IMG/VR virus record: IMGVR_UViG_3300046477_000127
Span: 1 to 39,679 of that record
From: a virus
Length of the DNA: 39,679 bases
Direction: 5' to 3' (one strand)
Shown: in pieces, positions 4,687 to 39,353 of the stretch
How the letters are laid out: each line of letters begins with the position of its first letter
How positions within the stretch are numbered: the stretch's first letter is position 1
Translations under genes and position numbers: made by a program
Notes under the pieces: model-generated
Seen by the model: the letters and a program-made list of their open reading frames with translations, nothing else
Told to the model about the DNA's origin: nothing
The model's database searches: none

Positions 4687-5606
4687 CCCGAGTCAGCATC
4701 ATCCCGGAATCTGAAGAGCACTGGCACAAGCTCCGCGCTCAAGACGTGACTAGCACCGAGTCTCCCGCGCTGTTCGGACTCTCGCCCTATATGACGAAGT
4801 TCGAACTGTGGCATCGCAAGAAGTCCGGCGAGGTCTACAGCATCAAGGATAACGAGCGCATGTTTTGGGGGCGAAAGTTGCAGGATGCGATTGCAAGCGG
4901 GATCGCGGAACAAAATAACTGGAAGGCCGGCCCGCGCCCGGAGTATGAGCGGCTTACGAATGTGCGGATGGGGTCATCTTTCGATTATTGCGCGATCCCT
5001 GACGATATAGGCGCCCTCATTGGCATGCTCGAAATCAAGAACGTAGATTACCTTGCGTTCCGCGATAACTGGACCGTAGGCGAGGATGGCGAGATCGAAG
5101 CGCCGCCGCACATTGAGATCCAACTTCAGCACCAGCTCCACGTCTCAGGATACACATGGGGCGCAATCGGCGTGCTGGTAGGAGGCAACAAGCCGCACGT
5201 TCTGATCCGCGAATATGACCCGAAAGTAGGGAAGGGCATCGAGAACAAGATTCGGGAGTTCTGGCTGAGCATCGAGGCCGGCAGAGAGCCGGAACCGTTC
5301 TATCCCGATGATTCGAAGTTCGTTCAGTCGCTCTACGGATACGCTGAGCCGGGTAAAATTCTTGATGCTCGCGATGATGACGAAATCGCAACGTTGTGTC
5401 ATGATTACGCTGAGGCGTCGAAGCGTGAAAAGCTCGCCAAGGAAGATAAGGATATCGCCAAGGCCAAGCTGCTTGAGGTGATCGGCAACGCGGAGAAGGT
5501 GATTGCTAGCGGGTTCAGTATCAGTTGCGGGATCGTAGCGCCGTGTGAGCTTAGTTATACGCGGGATGGCTACAGGCTGTTCAAAGTTACGAAGAAGAAA
5601 TCATGA
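4683..5606 (+). CDS. YqaJ / lambda-type recombination exonuclease, 307 aa
   Basis: A PD-(D/E)XK exonuclease that should resect double-stranded DNA ends to feed the RecT annealase. Family marks: TSTESPALFGLSPY (23-36, conserved early Glu/Ser), FWGRKLQ (61-67), GSSFDY with D101 and LEIKN with E117-x-K119 (metal site), and the glutamine-rich helix EIQLQHQLHVSG (145-156). A C-terminal helical extension follows from about residue 230 (KREKLAKEDKDIAKAKLLEV). It starts in an ATGA overlap and ends in an ATGA overlap with the HNH gene. Confidence 0.93.
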   Translation: MTRVSIIPESEEHWHKLRAQDVTSTESPALFGLSPYMTKFELWHRKKSGEVYSIKDNERMFWGRKLQDAIASGIAEQNNWKAGPRPEYERLTNVRMGSSFDYCAIPDDIGALIGMLEIKNVDYLAFRDNWTVGEDGEIEAPPHIEIQLQHQLHVSGYTWGAIGVLVGGNKPHVLIREYDPKVGKGIENKIREFWLSIEAGREPEPFYPDDSKFVQSLYGYAEPGKILDARDDDEIATLCHDYAEASKREKLAKEDKDIAKAKLLEVIGNAEKVIASGFSISCGIVAPCELSYTRDGYRLFKVTKKKS

Positions 5607-6205
5607 AGACTTCGCTTGATAGGTTCATGGAGAAGGTTGAGATAATCCCAATCGCAGGATGCTGGATCTGGATGGGTGCGACGGATCAGCATGGATACGG
5701 CTGCATGACCGTGAACCGAAAGAACGTAAGAGCGCACCGCTTTTCCCTCGGTGTTCTTGGGGGCGTTGATATTGAGACAGAAAAACTAGACGCTCTGCAT
5801 AGATGCGATAACCCATCTTGCGTGAATCCTCATCACTTGTTCGCCGGAACCGCTCAAGTGAATGTTGACGATATGTGGTCGAAAGGGCGAAATCGGAATC
5901 GTCCGATTCAGGACTATTGCAAAAGGGGCCACGAACTGTCCGGAGATAACGTGTACGTTTGGCCTAGTGGCAAAGGTAGATCATGTAGAAAATGCAATAA
6001 CGAAAGAGCAAGAGAATACACAGCAGCAAAGCCGAAATCGCCGCCTAAGCCGCTATCTAAGTTTTGCGGAAAGGGTCACGAGTTCACGGAAGAAAACACC
6101 TACTACCCAAAGCGAGGAAGTAGGCAATGCAAAGAGTGCATGCGTGAAATAGGGCGCAGACACGACATGAAACGAAGATCTAAACCGGAGATTCAAAATG
6201 GCTGA
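5603..6205 (+). CDS. HNH endonuclease with two C-terminal zinc knuckles, 200 aa
   Basis: A homing-type HNH nuclease. The core is CWIWMGATDQHGYG (20-33), then HRCDN (66-70) and CVNPHHLF (73-80), followed by NVDDMWSKGR. Two Cys/His repeats come after it: C106/H110 with C128/C131, and C155/H159 with C176/C179. Each reads C-x3-H-E, then N-x-Y, then C-x2-C, and probably contacts DNA. The gene sits between the exonuclease and RecT genes, which normally adjoin, so it looks like a mobile insertion now embedded in the operon (ATGA overlap upstream, 8-base overlap downstream). Confidence 0.9.
   Translation: MKTSLDRFMEKVEIIPIAGCWIWMGATDQHGYGCMTVNRKNVRAHRFSLGVLGGVDIETEKLDALHRCDNPSCVNPHHLFAGTAQVNVDDMWSKGRNRNRPIQDYCKRGHELSGDNVYVWPSGKGRSCRKCNNERAREYTAAKPKSPPKPLSKFCGKGHEFTEENTYYPKRGSRQCKECMREIGRRHDMKRRSKPEIQNG
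5637..5651. promoter_or_regulatory. Operator-like palindrome copy inside the HNH gene
   Basis: TTGAGATAATCCCAA, two mismatches to consensus (one at the central base), within codons 12-17 of the HNH gene. It could be chance. Confidence 0.4.
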
Positions 6206-28493: not shown

Positions 28494-30707
28494 TTATTGG
28501 CCCTGCTGCTGCGGTGCTGCCGTTTGCTGCAATTCCTTCTCTTTCAGCGCATCGATAGGCTGAAGCACGTTGCCGATGCCGTATGCATACGTGTTAGCCG
28601 GGTCTGCTTGATCCGGTTCCACGTTCGCATCCGGGTTGTACGCCCCCATCGTCTCCGCAATTAGCTTGCGGATGATCGGCTCCAGCGCCTGCTCAGACAT
28701 CATCGGAGCCATTGCCTTGAGTCGATCCGTCTCAGCCTTGAACGAGTCCAGAACCTGCTTATTATCGTTCTCCATCCGGATAGCCAAGTGGTTCAGCGCA
28801 TCCATATCCACGCGCTTCTGTTCAAGCTGGCGTTGGATCGTCTTGTCCTTCAACTCTTCCATCAACTGCTGGTTATGCTGCATGAGAACCTGATTCTGCT
28901 GCATCAGTTGCTGCTCTTGCGGGCTAGGACCGTTACCCATGATTCCCGGATTCATCCCGGCAATCCAATTGCGCATACGCTCCTGGAGCTCGTCCGCGTT
29001 CGGGAAGTCTGCCGCGCCCATGTACAGGTCACCGATGACAGGTGCGAGCGACATATTGCCCGCAAGCAGGTCCGTCATCGCTGCGAATGCTTCCTTGCGG
29101 CGCGTCTCGTAGTTCGGTCCGACTGTCGCAACCACGTCATACTGACCAACAGACGGATTGAATACTGCCTGGACCTTCGCATCCTGCTCCTGCTCGACCT
29201 GCGTAAGCGCTTGCTTGGCTTGCGGATCGATCTGGATAGCCTGTTCCGTTCCCGACTCGCTCATGATCCGGATAACGCGCTTGGTGTCGTAGATCTTCGG
29301 GATCAGATCGATGATGATCTTGCCCGTGTATCGAATCGACTTAGCCAGCGAGTCAGGATAGTGGAACGTGACGCGCTCGCCCTGCTTTTGACGCTGCTCG
29401 ATGGACCGGCCGGAGATTTCGTTACCCTGAGCGGAGAACGTCGCCTCATACTGGCCGGAAGCCATCATCATCTCGTGCTCTGCCGTCTGCATGCCCTCTA
29501 GGAATACCGGCGCACTGGTCGGCGGCTGGCTGCGTTGAGGCGGCGGGACTGGCTGGCCGGATTCGTCTGCGTGGTTATATGGTAGGTACGCGTGATTTTG
29601 CGAGTTTGCGGTTGCCCAAAAGTCTTCCAAGCCTTCGATAGCTTCCACCGGCGCGAGGTACGGAGACTTGCTCTGTAGAGCGCCGTACTCAAGAGCAGCC
29701 GACGCATTGTAGTTATACGCACGTTGCGGATCCTTCAGGTATCGCGTGAGGCCCTTCCGATCCAGGCGCCCGTCCATGACGATTTCCTCGCCAACGCAGC
29801 GCACAATCGGAATGTATTTGCCGGGCCATATTGTGGTTTCCGCAATACTATCGCCAACAATGAGATGATGCAAGACGCTGTACTTCGGCACCTTGCGGCG
29901 CATCACGTCGTCGCGCTCTTCATATGCCTGCTTCATCAGCTTGGCGCCTTCCGGGCCTAGTTCCGACTCACGCGCGAGCGTCGTTGAGCCATCGTCAGCA
30001 GGCAGCGCGTACAGCCATTCCTTGGATTCCGAGCGCTCGTAATACTCTGCGATGCGCACCTTGTCCGTGCTCATCCAGTTCTCGGCCATGTCACCGAAGG
30101 ACGAGCTCATCTGCGCTACCTTGCCGTATTTCGCTTCAGCGTCCTTGCGAGGGATCTCATCGAATACGAACGCAAATTTAGCGTCCGAGCCATCCTGCAT
30201 CTTGATGTTTGGGTCGAGGTAGACCGATAGAGGGTCAGGAATCTGTCGGATAAAAATGTCTTGGTCGAAACTGTCCTGATCTGTGTAATCAGTGACAACC
30301 CGCCAGTAGCCGATACCACCCCCGACCATGAATTGCGTCGCGATGTCATAGGCGCTTTCCGCGTCGCTAATATATTCAATGCGACGAATGACTTGCTCCA
30401 GGATTTGCGCGCTCTCATACGTGCTCTGATCCCCAGTAGGACTCACCGACACCTGCGGCCGGTTCATCTTGACCTGATTGACCACATGCAGCCAGTGCGT
30501 GTGCGTCTTGTTGATCGTCACCATTACCTGACCGGCGAGGTTGCGCCCTGCCCTTACAGACGCATTCCATTGGTCCTGGTTGTCCGAGTCAGCGTAGAGG
30601 AATCGCATGTCCTCTTTGAAACGCTGGCGGAATGGGCCTTCCCAGTCTACGCATTTGGTAAAGCGCTCTTTCGCCCGATTCAGGATCGTTTTATCGCGTT
30701 CGGCCAT
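28494..30707 (-). CDS. P22-type portal protein, 737 aa
   Basis: The dodecameric DNA gate of the head. Family features: the N-terminal DWEGPFRQRFKEDMRFLYAD, NAGQV-like NLAGQVMVTINKTHTHW, and long helical regions, with Gln-rich C-terminal helices that would form the barrel. Length is close to P22 gp1 (725 aa). It is followed by the scaffold gene and preceded by the terminase. The start codon abuts a palindrome copy (30707-30721), leaving no evident Shine-Dalgarno. Confidence 0.93.
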   Translation of the reverse strand: MAERDKTILNRAKERFTKCVDWEGPFRQRFKEDMRFLYADSDNQDQWNASVRAGRNLAGQVMVTINKTHTHWLHVVNQVKMNRPQVSVSPTGDQSTYESAQILEQVIRRIEYISDAESAYDIATQFMVGGGIGYWRVVTDYTDQDSFDQDIFIRQIPDPLSVYLDPNIKMQDGSDAKFAFVFDEIPRKDAEAKYGKVAQMSSSFGDMAENWMSTDKVRIAEYYERSESKEWLYALPADDGSTTLARESELGPEGAKLMKQAYEERDDVMRRKVPKYSVLHHLIVGDSIAETTIWPGKYIPIVRCVGEEIVMDGRLDRKGLTRYLKDPQRAYNYNASAALEYGALQSKSPYLAPVEAIEGLEDFWATANSQNHAYLPYNHADESGQPVPPPQRSQPPTSAPVFLEGMQTAEHEMMMASGQYEATFSAQGNEISGRSIEQRQKQGERVTFHYPDSLAKSIRYTGKIIIDLIPKIYDTKRVIRIMSESGTEQAIQIDPQAKQALTQVEQEQDAKVQAVFNPSVGQYDVVATVGPNYETRRKEAFAAMTDLLAGNMSLAPVIGDLYMGAADFPNADELQERMRNWIAGMNPGIMGNGPSPQEQQLMQQNQVLMQHNQQLMEELKDKTIQRQLEQKRVDMDALNHLAIRMENDNKQVLDSFKAETDRLKAMAPMMSEQALEPIIRKLIAETMGAYNPDANVEPDQADPANTYAYGIGNVLQPIDALKEKELQQTAAPQQQGQ

Positions 30708-30721
30708 TGTGATTATCTCAA
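30707..30721. promoter_or_regulatory. Operator-like palindrome copy at the portal start
   Basis: TTGTGATTATCTCAA differs from the consensus at one position. It spans the last codons and stop of the terminase gene and touches the portal start codon. Confidence 0.65.
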
Positions 30722-32690: not shown

Positions 32691-32873
32691 CTACTTGCCC
32701 CGCCAAGCGTCCTGAAACGTCCTGATGATGCGCGCCCGTTCATAGTCTGCCGTAGCCCTCACCATCACCGTCCTGCAATCTTCTGTTACTCCGAATGCCT
32801 TTTTGGCTACCCTGAGTTCATCGGGCGATTCCGGCATGAGTTCGATGTAAAACGGGTGATCGACGTATTGCAT
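32691..32873 (-). CDS. Small hypothetical protein, 60 aa
   Basis: Start at ATG 32873 in a TAATG overlap with the preceding stop. It encodes MQYVDHPFYIELMPESPDEL, then a charged alpha/beta body ending RIIRTFQDAWRGK. It is a late-block leader gene upstream of the terminase. Function unknown. Confidence 0.7.
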   Translation of the reverse strand: MQYVDHPFYIELMPESPDELRVAKKAFGVTEDCRTVMVRATADYERARIIRTFQDAWRGK

Positions 32874-33058
32874 TACTTGCCTCGAATATCCACCACGTTC
32901 GAGCTGATGCGGCTGCTGAGCACCTTCCAATGAATCTCACGCGCCTGCATGCGGTGGATCTCCTGGCGCTCCATTTTCGCGATGAGCTCGTCCAAATCGG
33001 ATTTCATAAACGCTTTCAATTCTGCGCGTCGTTTAATCTCTGATTCTCTTCGAGACAT
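32873..33058 (-). CDS. Small charged helical protein, 61 aa
   Basis: The sequence RRESEIKRRAELKAFMKSDL, then DELIAKMERQEIHRM, is a long charged helix, probably a coiled coil. A GGAG site lies 8 bases before the start. It is coupled to the next gene by TAATG. Function unknown. Confidence 0.7.
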   Translation of the reverse strand: MSRRESEIKRRAELKAFMKSDLDELIAKMERQEIHRMQAREIHWKVLSSRISSNVVDIRGK

Positions 33059-33084
33059 TATTATTTACTCCGGTGCGCGAGTAA

Positions 33085-33255
33085 TTATTTTACGTGACTG
33101 GTTTTCGGCGGATTAACGCCATTCAGTTTAACCGGTTCCGGTTTCGGTCCGGCCGGCGGTTTGCCGCCATCGAACATACCAGCTCGCGCGGTACGCGAAT
33201 TCTTAGCGCAGTTTGCTGCGTATCCCGGATTACCTGCATCGAGTTTCGTTGCCAT
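33085..33255 (-). CDS. Small Pro/Gly/Lys-rich protein, 56 aa
   Basis: Start at ATG 33255 with AAGGGG upstream; the frame extends further but would overlap the preceding gene heavily. It contains LDAGNPGYAANCAKNSRTAR and a Pro/Lys-rich tail (PPAGPKPEPVKLNGVNPP). It looks disordered and basic. Function unknown. Confidence 0.6.
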   Translation of the reverse strand: MATKLDAGNPGYAANCAKNSRTARAGMFDGGKPPAGPKPEPVKLNGVNPPKTSHVK

Positions 33256-33257
33256 AC

Positions 33258-33422
33258 CTACCCCTTGTGAATAAACGTGAGACACGTATCGCAGACGACC
33301 GAAAGAACGGGCGACTCTTCGACACGAACCAAATGAAACCTGAAAGACCCGCAGCCGCATGAATACGCTTCGTTGACACCGGGGAGCGCTTCCTGCACCG
33401 CCCTACCCCACCCGTGATGCAT
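33258..33422 (-). CDS. Small zinc-ribbon protein, 54 aa (66 aa if started at 33458)
   Basis: Contains CGC then, about 25 residues on, CDTC, a plausible four-cysteine metal site. Start at 33422 (MHHGWGR) has GGGGA at a fair distance; the alternative ATG at 33458 has no better site. It is the first gene of the leftward late block next to the putative origin. Confidence 0.6.
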   Translation of the reverse strand: MHHGWGRAVQEALPGVNEAYSCGCGSFRFHLVRVEESPVLSVVCDTCLTFIHKG

Positions 33423-33555
33423 CGGTTCCCCGACGTTCAAGCAATCGTTCTGAAGCATCCTGGCCCCGTCTTTTCTTGTTTGTTCAATCGCAACATGAAG
33501 GGTACACCTTACCGGTCGATTTGTCTACTGTTGCAAAGATTACGACGCATGACAG

Positions 33556-33637
33556 ACTCCTCACGCGTTTTAGACTCCTCACATGAACTTCTCACGCGCT
33601 AACCTCATGATCCGTAAGGAAAAACAAGACTCCTCAC
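33556..33637 (+). repeat. Iteron-like repeats, left cluster
   Basis: ACTCCTCAC at 33556-33564, 33574-33582 and 33629-33637, and ACTTCTCAC at 33587-33595. The first three are spaced 18 and 13 bases apart. Partial copies (GACTCACGG, GCTCACGG) follow at about 33639-33655. Confidence 0.75.
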
Positions 33638-33721
33638 GGACTCACGGCTCACGGGGGCACTGACAGACATCCAGCGGAAAACGCCTAAAAACATATAGGG
33701 GGGTGTCTATGTCTGTGAGTC

Positions 33722-33829
33722 GTGAGAAGTATATATGTATCTCTATATATATTCTTTAAATTCAACTACTTAGGCCATCTTAGACTTCTCACACATTGGC
33801 GTGAGAAGTACGTGAGAAATGCGAGAAGT
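33722..33829. repeat. Iteron-like repeats, right cluster (mostly inverted)
   Basis: GTGAGAAGT at 33722-33730 and 33801-33809, GTGAGAAAT at 33812-33820, GCGAGAAGT at 33821-33829, and one forward copy ACTTCTCAC at 33784-33792. They flank the AT-rich tract 33727-33770. Confidence 0.75.
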
Positions 33830-33859
33830 CACGATATTTTATTGCGACACAAATAGCGC

Positions 33860-33917: not shown

Positions 33918-34127
33918 GTGGCTAAGCTACCGGAGAACGTCACGCCGCTTCGGCGCCGGAAGGGCAGGAAGGTCGAGGTTCCGGACGGCATCCGCCTGAC
34001 GGTTTTCATCGGCCCTGAGCACGTACAAGCTGCGGAGCGTGCGGGGGATGGAAACATCAGCAAAGGCATCCGAGACCTGATCGACAAAGCGCTGAACTTC
34101 GAGCACGAGCACGAGCGCGCGATCTAA
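33918..34127 (+). CDS. Small ribbon-helix-helix-like DNA-binding protein, 69 aa
   Basis: GTG start with AGGGG 7 bases upstream. A basic N-terminus (LRRRKGRKVEV) is followed by a short strand (IRLTVFIG), a helix (PEHVQAAERAG) and NISKGIRDLIDKAL, the layout of a ribbon-helix-helix repressor. It is the first gene after the strong promoter with an operator copy, so it is a candidate autoregulator of that operon. It might also be an initiator accessory protein. Confidence 0.65.
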   Translation: MAKLPENVTPLRRRKGRKVEVPDGIRLTVFIGPEHVQAAERAGDGNISKGIRDLIDKALNFEHEHERAI

Positions 34128-34145
34128 CTAGAACTGGACGACGGC

Positions 34146-36656
34146 ATGAACAAGGCCAACTTGAGTGGCATGGATAACTATTCGCCGAAAGATGGAATCG
34201 AGGAGTTCAGGAGCCATCTAGCGGCTCAGGGGCTATTTCCGCCGACACTGCTGGCTGATGGGAAGATACATCGGTTTTCTGTGGGCGAAGGCCGGAAAAA
34301 CGACCACGGTTGGTATCTTCTCCATGAATTGCCCAACTGCGTTGGCGTGTACGGTAATTGGGCTGAGAGCGACGAGGCGCACAAATGGAGCGCGCGGCGC
34401 CGTAATACCTTCACGCAGGAAGAACGTGATGCATACCGCGAGCAGATGCGAAAGGCGTCTGAACAGCGGGAAACTGAGCGCGCCAGAAATGCGGCTGCGT
34501 GCGCGGAGCGTGTTAAGGATCAGTGGAAGGTAATTAAGGGCGCGACACAGGATAATCGATACGCTGAGCGAAAAGGGATTAAGCCGTATGGCGCGCGTCA
34601 GATGGCAGGTAATCCGAATGGCGCGCTGATGATCCTGATTCGTGATGCGGATTCGAATATCACGAGCGCTCAGTTTATTAATGCGGACGGATCGAAGAAA
34701 TTTGCGACTGGCGGTAGGGTAGGGGGCTGTTATTTCGGACTGAAAGGTAAGGGGTTTGAATCCGGAAATACGGTCCTGATTTGCGAAGGGTATGCGACGG
34801 CGTGCTCTATTTTCGAGGCGTTTAAAGAGCGCTTTACCGTGGTCGCAGCTCTGAGCGCGAAAAATATCGGGCCGGTAGCGAAAATAATGCGCGGTAAGTT
34901 TCCGGATGCGCGCATCGTAATTTGCGCTGAAGATGACTGGAAAAAGGCCGATAACGTAGGTTTGGTCTGTGCGCGTGATGCTGCTCTGATGATCGGGGCC
35001 GCGTTCGCAGTTCCGGAATTTGGCGCGGACCGAAAAGAGAAGGATACGGATTTTAACGATATGGCGAACGCTGTCGGCATGGATGCCGTAGTGCGCGTCA
35101 TCGAGCAGGCAAAACCACTCCACGAGGAAACAGACCATGAGCACGAACCACAGCGAAGCCCGGAAGTATTTTCAGGCGCAGATTCAGATCGCACACCTGG
35201 AATCGAGACTGAGCCGGGTATTCCGGGAGGAACAGGAGACGAAGAAGCAGATCGAGGAAATCACGCAGCGCCTGGAGACGTTGAAAGCGATCCGGGATTC
35301 GCAGCAGACGATCTGATCCCGCTCACGGCATACCACGAGGAAGGGTCTGGGGAGTCTCAGTATATCGAGCCGTTTGACGGCGTCATGGAGGAGCTTTTCA
35401 GGGCCGCAATGCCACGCCAGATTCGTCCCCAGCCGGCGCTTACCGTGGCTGCGATTTTGGCCGGAATGTCTGCATGCATGCATGGGAAATATGCGCTGCC
35501 TGATGGCATGCGGGGCAATCTGTATGTTGTCGGCCTAGCAGGTTCTACGGCTGGTAAGAGCCTTCCTCTTAGCATCGTGAAGTGCATGGTTCGCGCAGCC
35601 GGAGGAACGGCTTACTCGAATATCGCATCCGGACAGGGCGTCGAGGAGGCATTGATTCGCTCCGACAATGGGCGCCTGAGCGTTGCAATTGATGAAGTAG
35701 GGCAGTTGATTGGGTCTTTCTCGGACAAGAACGCGGCTTCGTATCAGAAGTACACGAACAAGATGATGCTTGAACTGTTCTCAGATCATGAGTTCACGTC
35801 TCGTTTGCTGGCAGATACGTCGATGAAGCCGAAAACGATCTTTAACCCGTACTTCACGATGTATGGAACGACAACGCACGCGGATATGCGGAATCTTCCC
35901 GCCAGTCTCATCTCGAAGGGAACGATAGGTCGATGCCTGTTCGTGAACGGTGAGGATTTCGTTGATCTTCAGCGCGTGAACGTACCGGGAAACCTTTTCG
36001 GAGACGTGAACCGGATCATTGGCGATGCAGCAAAAAGGATCTACGAATTCGGGAATCCGATCCAGTACCCTGGGCATGAACAGATTGAGATAAAGGTTTC
36101 GCCTGAAGCCGATGAAATGCTTTGGGATATCGGCGTGAATTTCGACAGTGAGCGCCGGAACATCGAAGGGCCTGCGCATACGCTGCTTGGCCGAGCCTGG
36201 GAGCAGGTGAAGCGGATTTCATTGGTGCTTGCTGTATGGGACATCAACCACATGCCGAAGGCCCGTGCAAACCGCGTTGAGGTTCGACACGTCGAGTGGG
36301 CGCTTGCTTTTGTGCGCAACAGCAATAAATGCCTGATCGGGTTTATGGAAAACATGACCGACGACCCGATTGTTGAGGCTGCAGAAAAGGCATCAAAGAT
36401 CATGCACGATGCCGTGAACGGTAGGCGCCCGTTCGGCGGGGCTGATAAGGTCTACAACACGGTCGCTGAGATTGATGGACTCGTGAACAGAACGGCGCTC
36501 CTGAGAAAGATGCGGGTCAAGTCCGCCTTGATGAACGAGATCGTAAAACACATGATCGATGCCGGCATGGTTCAGGAAGAGAAGATAGACCGCGAAGGCG
36601 TTCACGGGCCAAAGGGGACCATGGCGCTTAAATTACTGAAGAGGGGAAAGCGATGA
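34146..36656 (+). CDS. Primase-helicase, 836 aa
   Basis: A replication protein with an N-terminal primase/toprim half and a C-terminal P-loop helicase half. The toprim core shows GNTVLICEGYATA (207-219, Glu214) and RIVICAEDD (256-264). A low-complexity linker (about 321-390) follows. The helicase-like half has Walker A GLAGSTAGKS (463-472), VAIDEVGQLIGSF (Walker B region) and AHTLLGRAWEQVKRIS, similar to DUF3987-type domains. The linker is encoded over a second, overlapping gene (35137-35316). It is the likely initiator/primase at the adjacent origin. Confidence 0.88.
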   Translation: MNKANLSGMDNYSPKDGIEEFRSHLAAQGLFPPTLLADGKIHRFSVGEGRKNDHGWYLLHELPNCVGVYGNWAESDEAHKWSARRRNTFTQEERDAYREQMRKASEQRETERARNAAACAERVKDQWKVIKGATQDNRYAERKGIKPYGARQMAGNPNGALMILIRDADSNITSAQFINADGSKKFATGGRVGGCYFGLKGKGFESGNTVLICEGYATACSIFEAFKERFTVVAALSAKNIGPVAKIMRGKFPDARIVICAEDDWKKADNVGLVCARDAALMIGAAFAVPEFGADRKEKDTDFNDMANAVGMDAVVRVIEQAKPLHEETDHEHEPQRSPEVFSGADSDRTPGIETEPGIPGGTGDEEADRGNHAAPGDVESDPGFAADDLIPLTAYHEEGSGESQYIEPFDGVMEELFRAAMPRQIRPQPALTVAAILAGMSACMHGKYALPDGMRGNLYVVGLAGSTAGKSLPLSIVKCMVRAAGGTAYSNIASGQGVEEALIRSDNGRLSVAIDEVGQLIGSFSDKNAASYQKYTNKMMLELFSDHEFTSRLLADTSMKPKTIFNPYFTMYGTTTHADMRNLPASLISKGTIGRCLFVNGEDFVDLQRVNVPGNLFGDVNRIIGDAAKRIYEFGNPIQYPGHEQIEIKVSPEADEMLWDIGVNFDSERRNIEGPAHTLLGRAWEQVKRISLVLAVWDINHMPKARANRVEVRHVEWALAFVRNSNKCLIGFMENMTDDPIVEAAEKASKIMHDAVNGRRPFGGADKVYNTVAEIDGLVNRTALLRKMRVKSALMNEIVKHMIDAGMVQEEKIDREGVHGPKGTMALKLLKRGKR
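35137..35316 (+). CDS. Overprinted coiled-coil protein inside the primase gene, 59 aa
   Basis: In the +1 frame relative to the primase, an ATG preceded by GAGGA at about 9 bases opens a 59-codon frame: STNHSEARKYFQAQIQ, then AHLESRLSRVFREEQETKKQ and IEEITQRLETLKAIRDSQ, a clear heptad coiled coil. Counting by eye, roughly four-fifths of its third positions are G or C, as in other genes here, while the primase frame over the same bases has far fewer. So the small frame looks like the ancestral coding frame. Function unknown; it may act with replication proteins. Confidence 0.7.
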   Translation: MSTNHSEARKYFQAQIQIAHLESRLSRVFREEQETKKQIEEITQRLETLKAIRDSQQTI

Positions 36657-39184: not shown

Positions 39185-39353
39185 ACACGAGATGGAAGCG
39201 TTGCTGGAAGCGCTGGAAATGGCATACGATGCGCTTACCGTGAAGGTTAGCGAGGGCGAGATGAAGGCAACTAAGGCCGTTGTTAGGCTTAGAATCGCTA
39301 CTCTGCGCTCCGATCTGCGTATGCTCGAAACACCTATTGCGAGAGAGAAATGA
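39174..39353 (+). CDS. Small helical protein, 59 aa
   Basis: The ATG at 39174 lies inside the end of the previous gene and the TGA overlaps the next ATG at 39350. The sequence (KNKHEMEALLEALEMAYDAL, then ATKAVVRLRIATLRSDLRML) is an amphipathic two-helix protein. Function unknown. Confidence 0.65.
   Translation: MKNKHEMEALLEALEMAYDALTVKVSEGEMKATKAVVRLRIATLRSDLRMLETPIAREK

Follow-up and report, generated by a model that had tools for sequence, protein, structure and literature searches.

A probable small gene nested out of frame between the two halves of a phage primase-helicase

The linker joining the two halves of a phage primase-helicase is very probably the out-of-frame reading of a small gene, one that is real, independently started and written in the primary frame of the segment. 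This judgement concerns the gene and its frame, not the function of its product or the route by which it arose. The window analysed is IMG/VR virus record IMGVR_UViG_3300046477_000127, a stretch of 39,679 nt from a phage termed P22-like. In IMG/VR exactly this primase-helicase was found in three lineages: the window, L006 and L001. A further record, L002, overlaps L001 with a protein identity of 100%, which leaves three distinct lineages in all. The features of the locus, in window positions, are as follows.

34146-36656, plus strand: long gene, encoding an 836-aa fused primase-helicase (Toprim_3 + DUF3987; PHROG primase families)
34773-35081, plus strand: Toprim_3 domain of the long protein (residues 210-312; 29.8 bits against a cut-off of 27.2)
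35116-35330, plus strand: linker between the two domains of the long protein, in essence an alternative-frame reading of the small gene; the corresponding stretch shows a gap in fused relatives that lack this gene
35122-35320, plus strand: island nearly identical to L006 (199 bp, 7 mismatches; surroundings about 50% identical)
35124-35128, plus strand: Shine-Dalgarno site GAGGA of the small gene, 8 nt before its ATG; also present in L006 and L001
35137-35316, plus strand: nested small gene with an ATG start (59 aa, predicted coiled coil), in the +1 frame of the long gene over residues ~331-391
35628-36317, plus strand: DUF3987 helicase-type domain of the long protein (residues 495-724 matched; 39.3 bits against a cut-off of 27)

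Both Pfam domains of the long protein exceed their curated cut-offs, which marks it as a Toprim_3-DUF3987 primase-helicase, and the small ORF sits between them. The initial annotation had described a 59-codon ORF in the +1 frame, a GAGGA ribosome site, a position over the linker and a contrast in G+C content, and every detail was confirmed in the sequence. Third-position G+C over the shared span is 0.80 in the small frame versus 0.34 in the long frame, with the genes of the genome at about 0.56-0.71. By eye, the long gene has a poor ribosome site (ggacgacggcATG, window 34120-34146), weaker than that of the nested gene, and its start may depend on coupling to an upstream 69-aa gene.

The long proteins of L006 and L001 are 48-50% identical to that of the window. 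In all three lineages the small ORF occupies the same place and the same frame, and the long frame is open across it. The small proteins of L006 and L001 share 97% and 45% identity, respectively, with that of the window, and the block QIQIAHLESRL is unchanged across all three. The ATG and the GAGGA site are also retained throughout, at a spacing of 5-8 nt, and in each lineage the start region of the small gene ranks among the least structured ~1% of the 60-nt mRNA windows of the gene. The pattern that would have spoken against a small gene, with homologues conserving the long-frame linker and lacking the small frame or its start, came out the opposite way: the small frame, ATG and ribosome site are retained, whereas the long-frame linker is not.

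ORF length was rejected as evidence for the gene. In synonymous resampling, where the long-frame proteins were held fixed and codons were redrawn (4000 draws), the +1 frame stayed open in the window and L001 jointly in 58% of cases, so that length proves nothing alone. Another +1-frame ORF of the same long gene (91 codons, 34258-34533) is not conserved. The small ORF is more than chance because it is conserved: 0 of 4000 resamplings made the small frames of the window and L001 as similar as they are. A resampling scan along the gene gave z=9.0 (window-L001) and z=9.2 (L006-L001) at the small ORF, with no comparable peak elsewhere in the gene in either forward frame. In the reverse test, with the small proteins fixed, long-frame similarity was near expectation (p=0.045), and an open long frame was expected in only 4% and 18% of draws. 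The long frame is therefore kept open.

The comparison of synonymous changes proposed in the initial annotation pointed the same way. The window and L006 differ at seven sites inside the small gene; five are silent and two replacing in the small frame, which is thus spared, and every one of the seven alters the long protein. Small-frame identity between the window and L001 at the three codon positions is 0.50/0.62/0.39, and 14 of the 25 residues identical between the two small proteins are encoded by different codons. What is conserved is therefore the protein and not the DNA, a pattern at odds with a DNA element or an RNA structure. As judged from these substitution patterns, purifying selection is shown to act on the small frame. 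The residues of the long-frame linker have no conservation of their own beyond the constraint imposed by the small frame, and the openness and rough length of the long frame seem to be under selection.

Codon usage supports the view that the segment was coding in the small frame before it was coding in the long one, as had been suggested from the G+C contrast. Polarity was assessed by the correlation of codon usage with phage genes, with Hotelling p values, a method used for viral overlaps (PMC8227390). In the window the small frame correlates with the genome at 0.52 and the long frame at 0.06 (p=0.02). In L001 it is 0.44 versus -0.20 (p=0.014), and the pooled value is p=0.014. Raw codon counts give the same difference more weakly (window p=0.11, pooled p=0.045), and log-likelihood codon scoring agrees in direction with the small frame. 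The test covers 55-59 codons per sequence, and the polarity rests on these because the distinct lineages found number three. Overprinted genes, if old, may gain genome-like codon usage (Sabath et al., to the extent described in PMC8227390).

The small gene also has a history of its own. Along the long gene about half of the sites differ between the window and L006, except at 35122-35320, and the edges of this island lie 2 nt 5' of the ribosome site and 4 nt 3' of the small-gene stop. Constraint as the sole cause of the near-identity was rejected; the same region is widely diverged in L001, which shows that it tolerates large divergence, and constraint is therefore insufficient. The toprim tree groups L006 with L001 and leaves the window outside (support 99/97), whereas the small gene pairs L006 with the window. 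This conflict indicates that the small gene was exchanged between lineages, and the close fit of the island, which overshoots the ribosome site and the stop by only a few bases, means that the gene recombines as a unit. The same phage encodes YqaJ and RecT recombination genes, whose products are a plausible means of the exchange. Between these two genes lies a possible HNH-type endonuclease that scored below the Pfam cut-off (window 5603-6205). Window segments 30590-30708 and 32692-33536 are 97% identical to L006 in phages that are otherwise diverged, marking recent mosaic exchanges. The island exchange is part of this general mosaicism, and its notable point is the fit to the gene.

The product of the small gene is predicted to be a single long helix (residues 3-57, mean pLDDT 93.6), and it is probably a coiled-coil oligomer. 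A 4-3 hydrophobic pattern is common to both diverged small proteins, but in a permutation test of heptad a/d hydrophobic contrast it is significant in the window protein alone (p=0.005 in the window, 0.12 in L001). Together with the retained GAGGA and ATG, the predicted helix upholds the earlier reading of a coiled-coil gene with its own ribosome site. The structure model of the long protein was uninformative (mean pLDDT 32.5) and lends no support to disorder of the linker.

Searches with the small protein revealed few relatives. No Pfam family scored above the cut-off and no PHROG match was convincing; across Pfam, PHROG and solved structures all matches were to coiled coils and sub-threshold. 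No match was found in isolated-phage records at E<=1, and in IMG/VR the protein was found in the three lineages only. A small-protein profile detected only weak coiled-coil segments in 398 Pseudomonadota genomes, mostly in far longer proteins. A free-standing homologue of the small gene was thus found in none of the phage records, IMG/VR or the 398 genomes. The linker DNA had no match in plasmids, and the helicase half had none in 369 genomes at 1e-8. The likeliest guess at a function, and a tentative one, is a partner of the phage replication machinery that would be made in step with it; this guess leads because the product would be made from the primase-helicase mRNA. Otherwise the protein may serve in interaction with the host.

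Among related Toprim primases some stand alone and others are fused to VapE-like, DUF3631, AAA_25, DUF5906, PHROG-1139-type or DUF3987 partners. Six fused Toprim-DUF3987 proteins lack the small gene (L018, L024, L025, L026, L042, L054). Aligned with such relatives, the window protein faces a gap at the position of the small gene, their linkers being shorter by roughly 40-60 residues. In two loci (L041 and L050) a free-standing Toprim gene abuts a separate DUF3987 gene with nothing between them, which makes these loci a handy reference for the unfused state in the evolution of primase-helicases. The two domains can therefore occur together, fused or not, in the absence of the small gene. In the fetched free-standing Toprim loci the primase gene is followed by a helicase or other gene, or by the contig end, and a small coiled-coil gene was seen in none. 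The small gene is present in all three lineages of the window primase-helicase clade and absent from distant fused relatives only, a pattern drawn from three lineages. The backbone of the toprim tree is poorly resolved, leaving the window clade unplaced relative to the other helicase partners, and the ancestral state likewise.

The most likely origin, somewhat above read-through fusion and overprinting, is insertion of a cassette at the domain junction. Ribosomes would start at the GAGGA/ATG of the small gene on the primase-helicase mRNA and produce a 59-aa wholly helical protein, a probable coiled-coil oligomer. The same DNA, kept open in the long frame, would supply a putatively flexible linker joining the Toprim and DUF3987 halves, whose sequence follows as a side product from that of the small gene. 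The gene would have arrived as a cassette and would still pass between phages by recombination. Against this origin, a free-standing homologue of the small gene would be predicted to exist somewhere, and none was found.

The initial annotation had instead proposed that the primase, small and helicase genes once lay separately side by side, and that loss of the primase stop extended the long frame across the small gene to join the helicase. This account is possible, though doubtful. It agrees with the greater age of the small frame; free-standing Toprim genes end soon after a D(F/W)ND motif, near the position of the small-gene start here; the DUF3987 half of the window lineage diverges from those of other fused relatives, so that an independent fusion could have occurred; and the spacer of the hepatitis B polymerase is a direct precedent (PMC8227390). 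However, phages with the three as separate genes were looked for and the order was found in no genome, while fused proteins without the small gene and abutting Toprim and DUF3987 genes indicate that fusion does not need it. This part of the initial annotation is therefore not borne out. Cassette insertion and read-through fusion alike predict a linker made of the small gene, so no sequence found separates these two. Overprinting in the usual direction, with a long disordered linker present first and its +1 frame becoming a gene later, is rather unlikely. Disordered linkers tolerate overprinting, the searches gave no homologue of the small gene standing by itself, and the new frame is at +1 in most internal viral overlaps (Willis and Masel, so far as summarised in PMC8227390). 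Yet codon usage and codon-position G+C suit the small frame and not the long one, the fused relatives without the gene have linkers roughly 40-60 residues shorter, and long-frame linker residues are not conserved.

The remaining explanations are far less probable. Programmed frameshifting into the +1 frame, which would give the primase a coiled-coil tail instead of its helicase half, is very improbable. A shift just upstream of the ATG could be accommodated, since the +1 frame has no stop over the preceding 15 codons in the window, 6 in L006 and 8 in L001. By eye, however, no slippery site was shared, and what has been conserved is an ATG in a stretch of little structure with a ribosome site 5-8 nt before it. 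Least probable of all is that there is no gene, and that the ORF arose by chance or the segment is conserved as DNA or RNA, for example as a replication origin within a replication gene. Origins located within initiator genes are familiar from lambdoid phages, and resampling showed that alternative-frame ORFs of such length are not rare in the long gene. Nevertheless, identity rises and falls with the codon positions of the small frame, many of the differences are silent, and the coding test gave z=9. The repeats of the region are imperfect heptad-like pairs, direct repeats are lacking in the L001 region, and iteron-like repeats lie elsewhere (33555-33830).

These iteron-like repeats, just upstream of the replication operon, are eight copies of GACTYCTCACR (both strands, <=1 mismatch). 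All window matches to the motif fall within 33555-33830, with 2.4 expected by chance in the whole window, and the cluster is a candidate set of replication-origin iterons or repressor operators. An ORF at window 37745-38416 matches the C-terminal quarter of the N6_N4_Mtase profile only (positions 160-219 of 221), and its product may be a truncated or divergent DNA methylase. In L001, a 243-aa ORF at 4757-5488 contains a long run of near-perfect ARDAA-type repeats, and 28 bp just downstream of it (L001 5502-5529) are nearly identical to window 39326-39353.

With its strong comparative support, clear polarity and an exchange island that fits the gene, the nested gene is a compact test case for the acquisition of a linker by a fused enzyme. 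It bears on whether small genes tend to land in disordered linkers and whether an accessory gene is guarded against loss by sitting within an essential one. A broader and more speculative proposal, considered possible but not probable, is that the small coiled-coil gene serves as a movable linker, which phages acquire and swap whole where the halves of a fused replication enzyme meet. It would act as a flexible linker in one frame and encode a separate protein for replication or host control in the other; its loss would break an essential enzyme, so that a non-nuclease element would protect itself by being embedded. Nested genes in dsDNA phages are probably undercounted because automatic annotation likely misses genes that lie wholly inside longer ones.

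Among known systems, other fused Toprim_3-DUF3987 phage primase-helicases have both domains in the same order; those fetched differ in their shorter linkers and in having no conserved small gene at the junction. In the lambda spanin genes Rz/Rz1 a small phage gene is likewise nested out of frame, and both genes act in lysis; the pair described here differs in involving a replication gene and a small gene of another kind. No account of overlapping genes in T7 gene 4 turned up in the literature searched. The published arrangements that come nearest are ShiLan-type insertions and the hepatitis B polymerase spacer. ShiLan-type insertion elements in phage methylase genes (PMC11855218) also place a small complete gene out of frame inside a larger phage gene, leave the host frame open to be read as a loop predicted not to interfere, and behave in a patchy, mobile manner. 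The ShiLan gene, however, encodes a 195-aa HNH homing endonuclease and has a GTG start with no detectable ribosome site (PMC11855218), whereas the nested gene here encodes a 59-aa coiled coil, has a ribosome site and specifies no nuclease, and therefore cannot home by itself. An empty site in a close relative was not found. In hepatitis B virus the surface gene (pre-S) overlaps the disordered spacer that joins the polymerase halves, and it has been suggested that the spacer frame is the newer one by codon usage and acted as a linker (PMC8227390, PMC9093120). The register is also the same, with long-frame position 1 over small-frame position 3. Hepatitis B is an animal reverse-transcribing virus in which an essential envelope protein is encoded in a 1200-nt overlap that reaches into an enzyme domain, while here a 180-nt coiled-coil gene of a tailed phage matches the linker end to end. 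The nested gene thus resembles the ShiLan and hepatitis B cases in part and belongs to neither.
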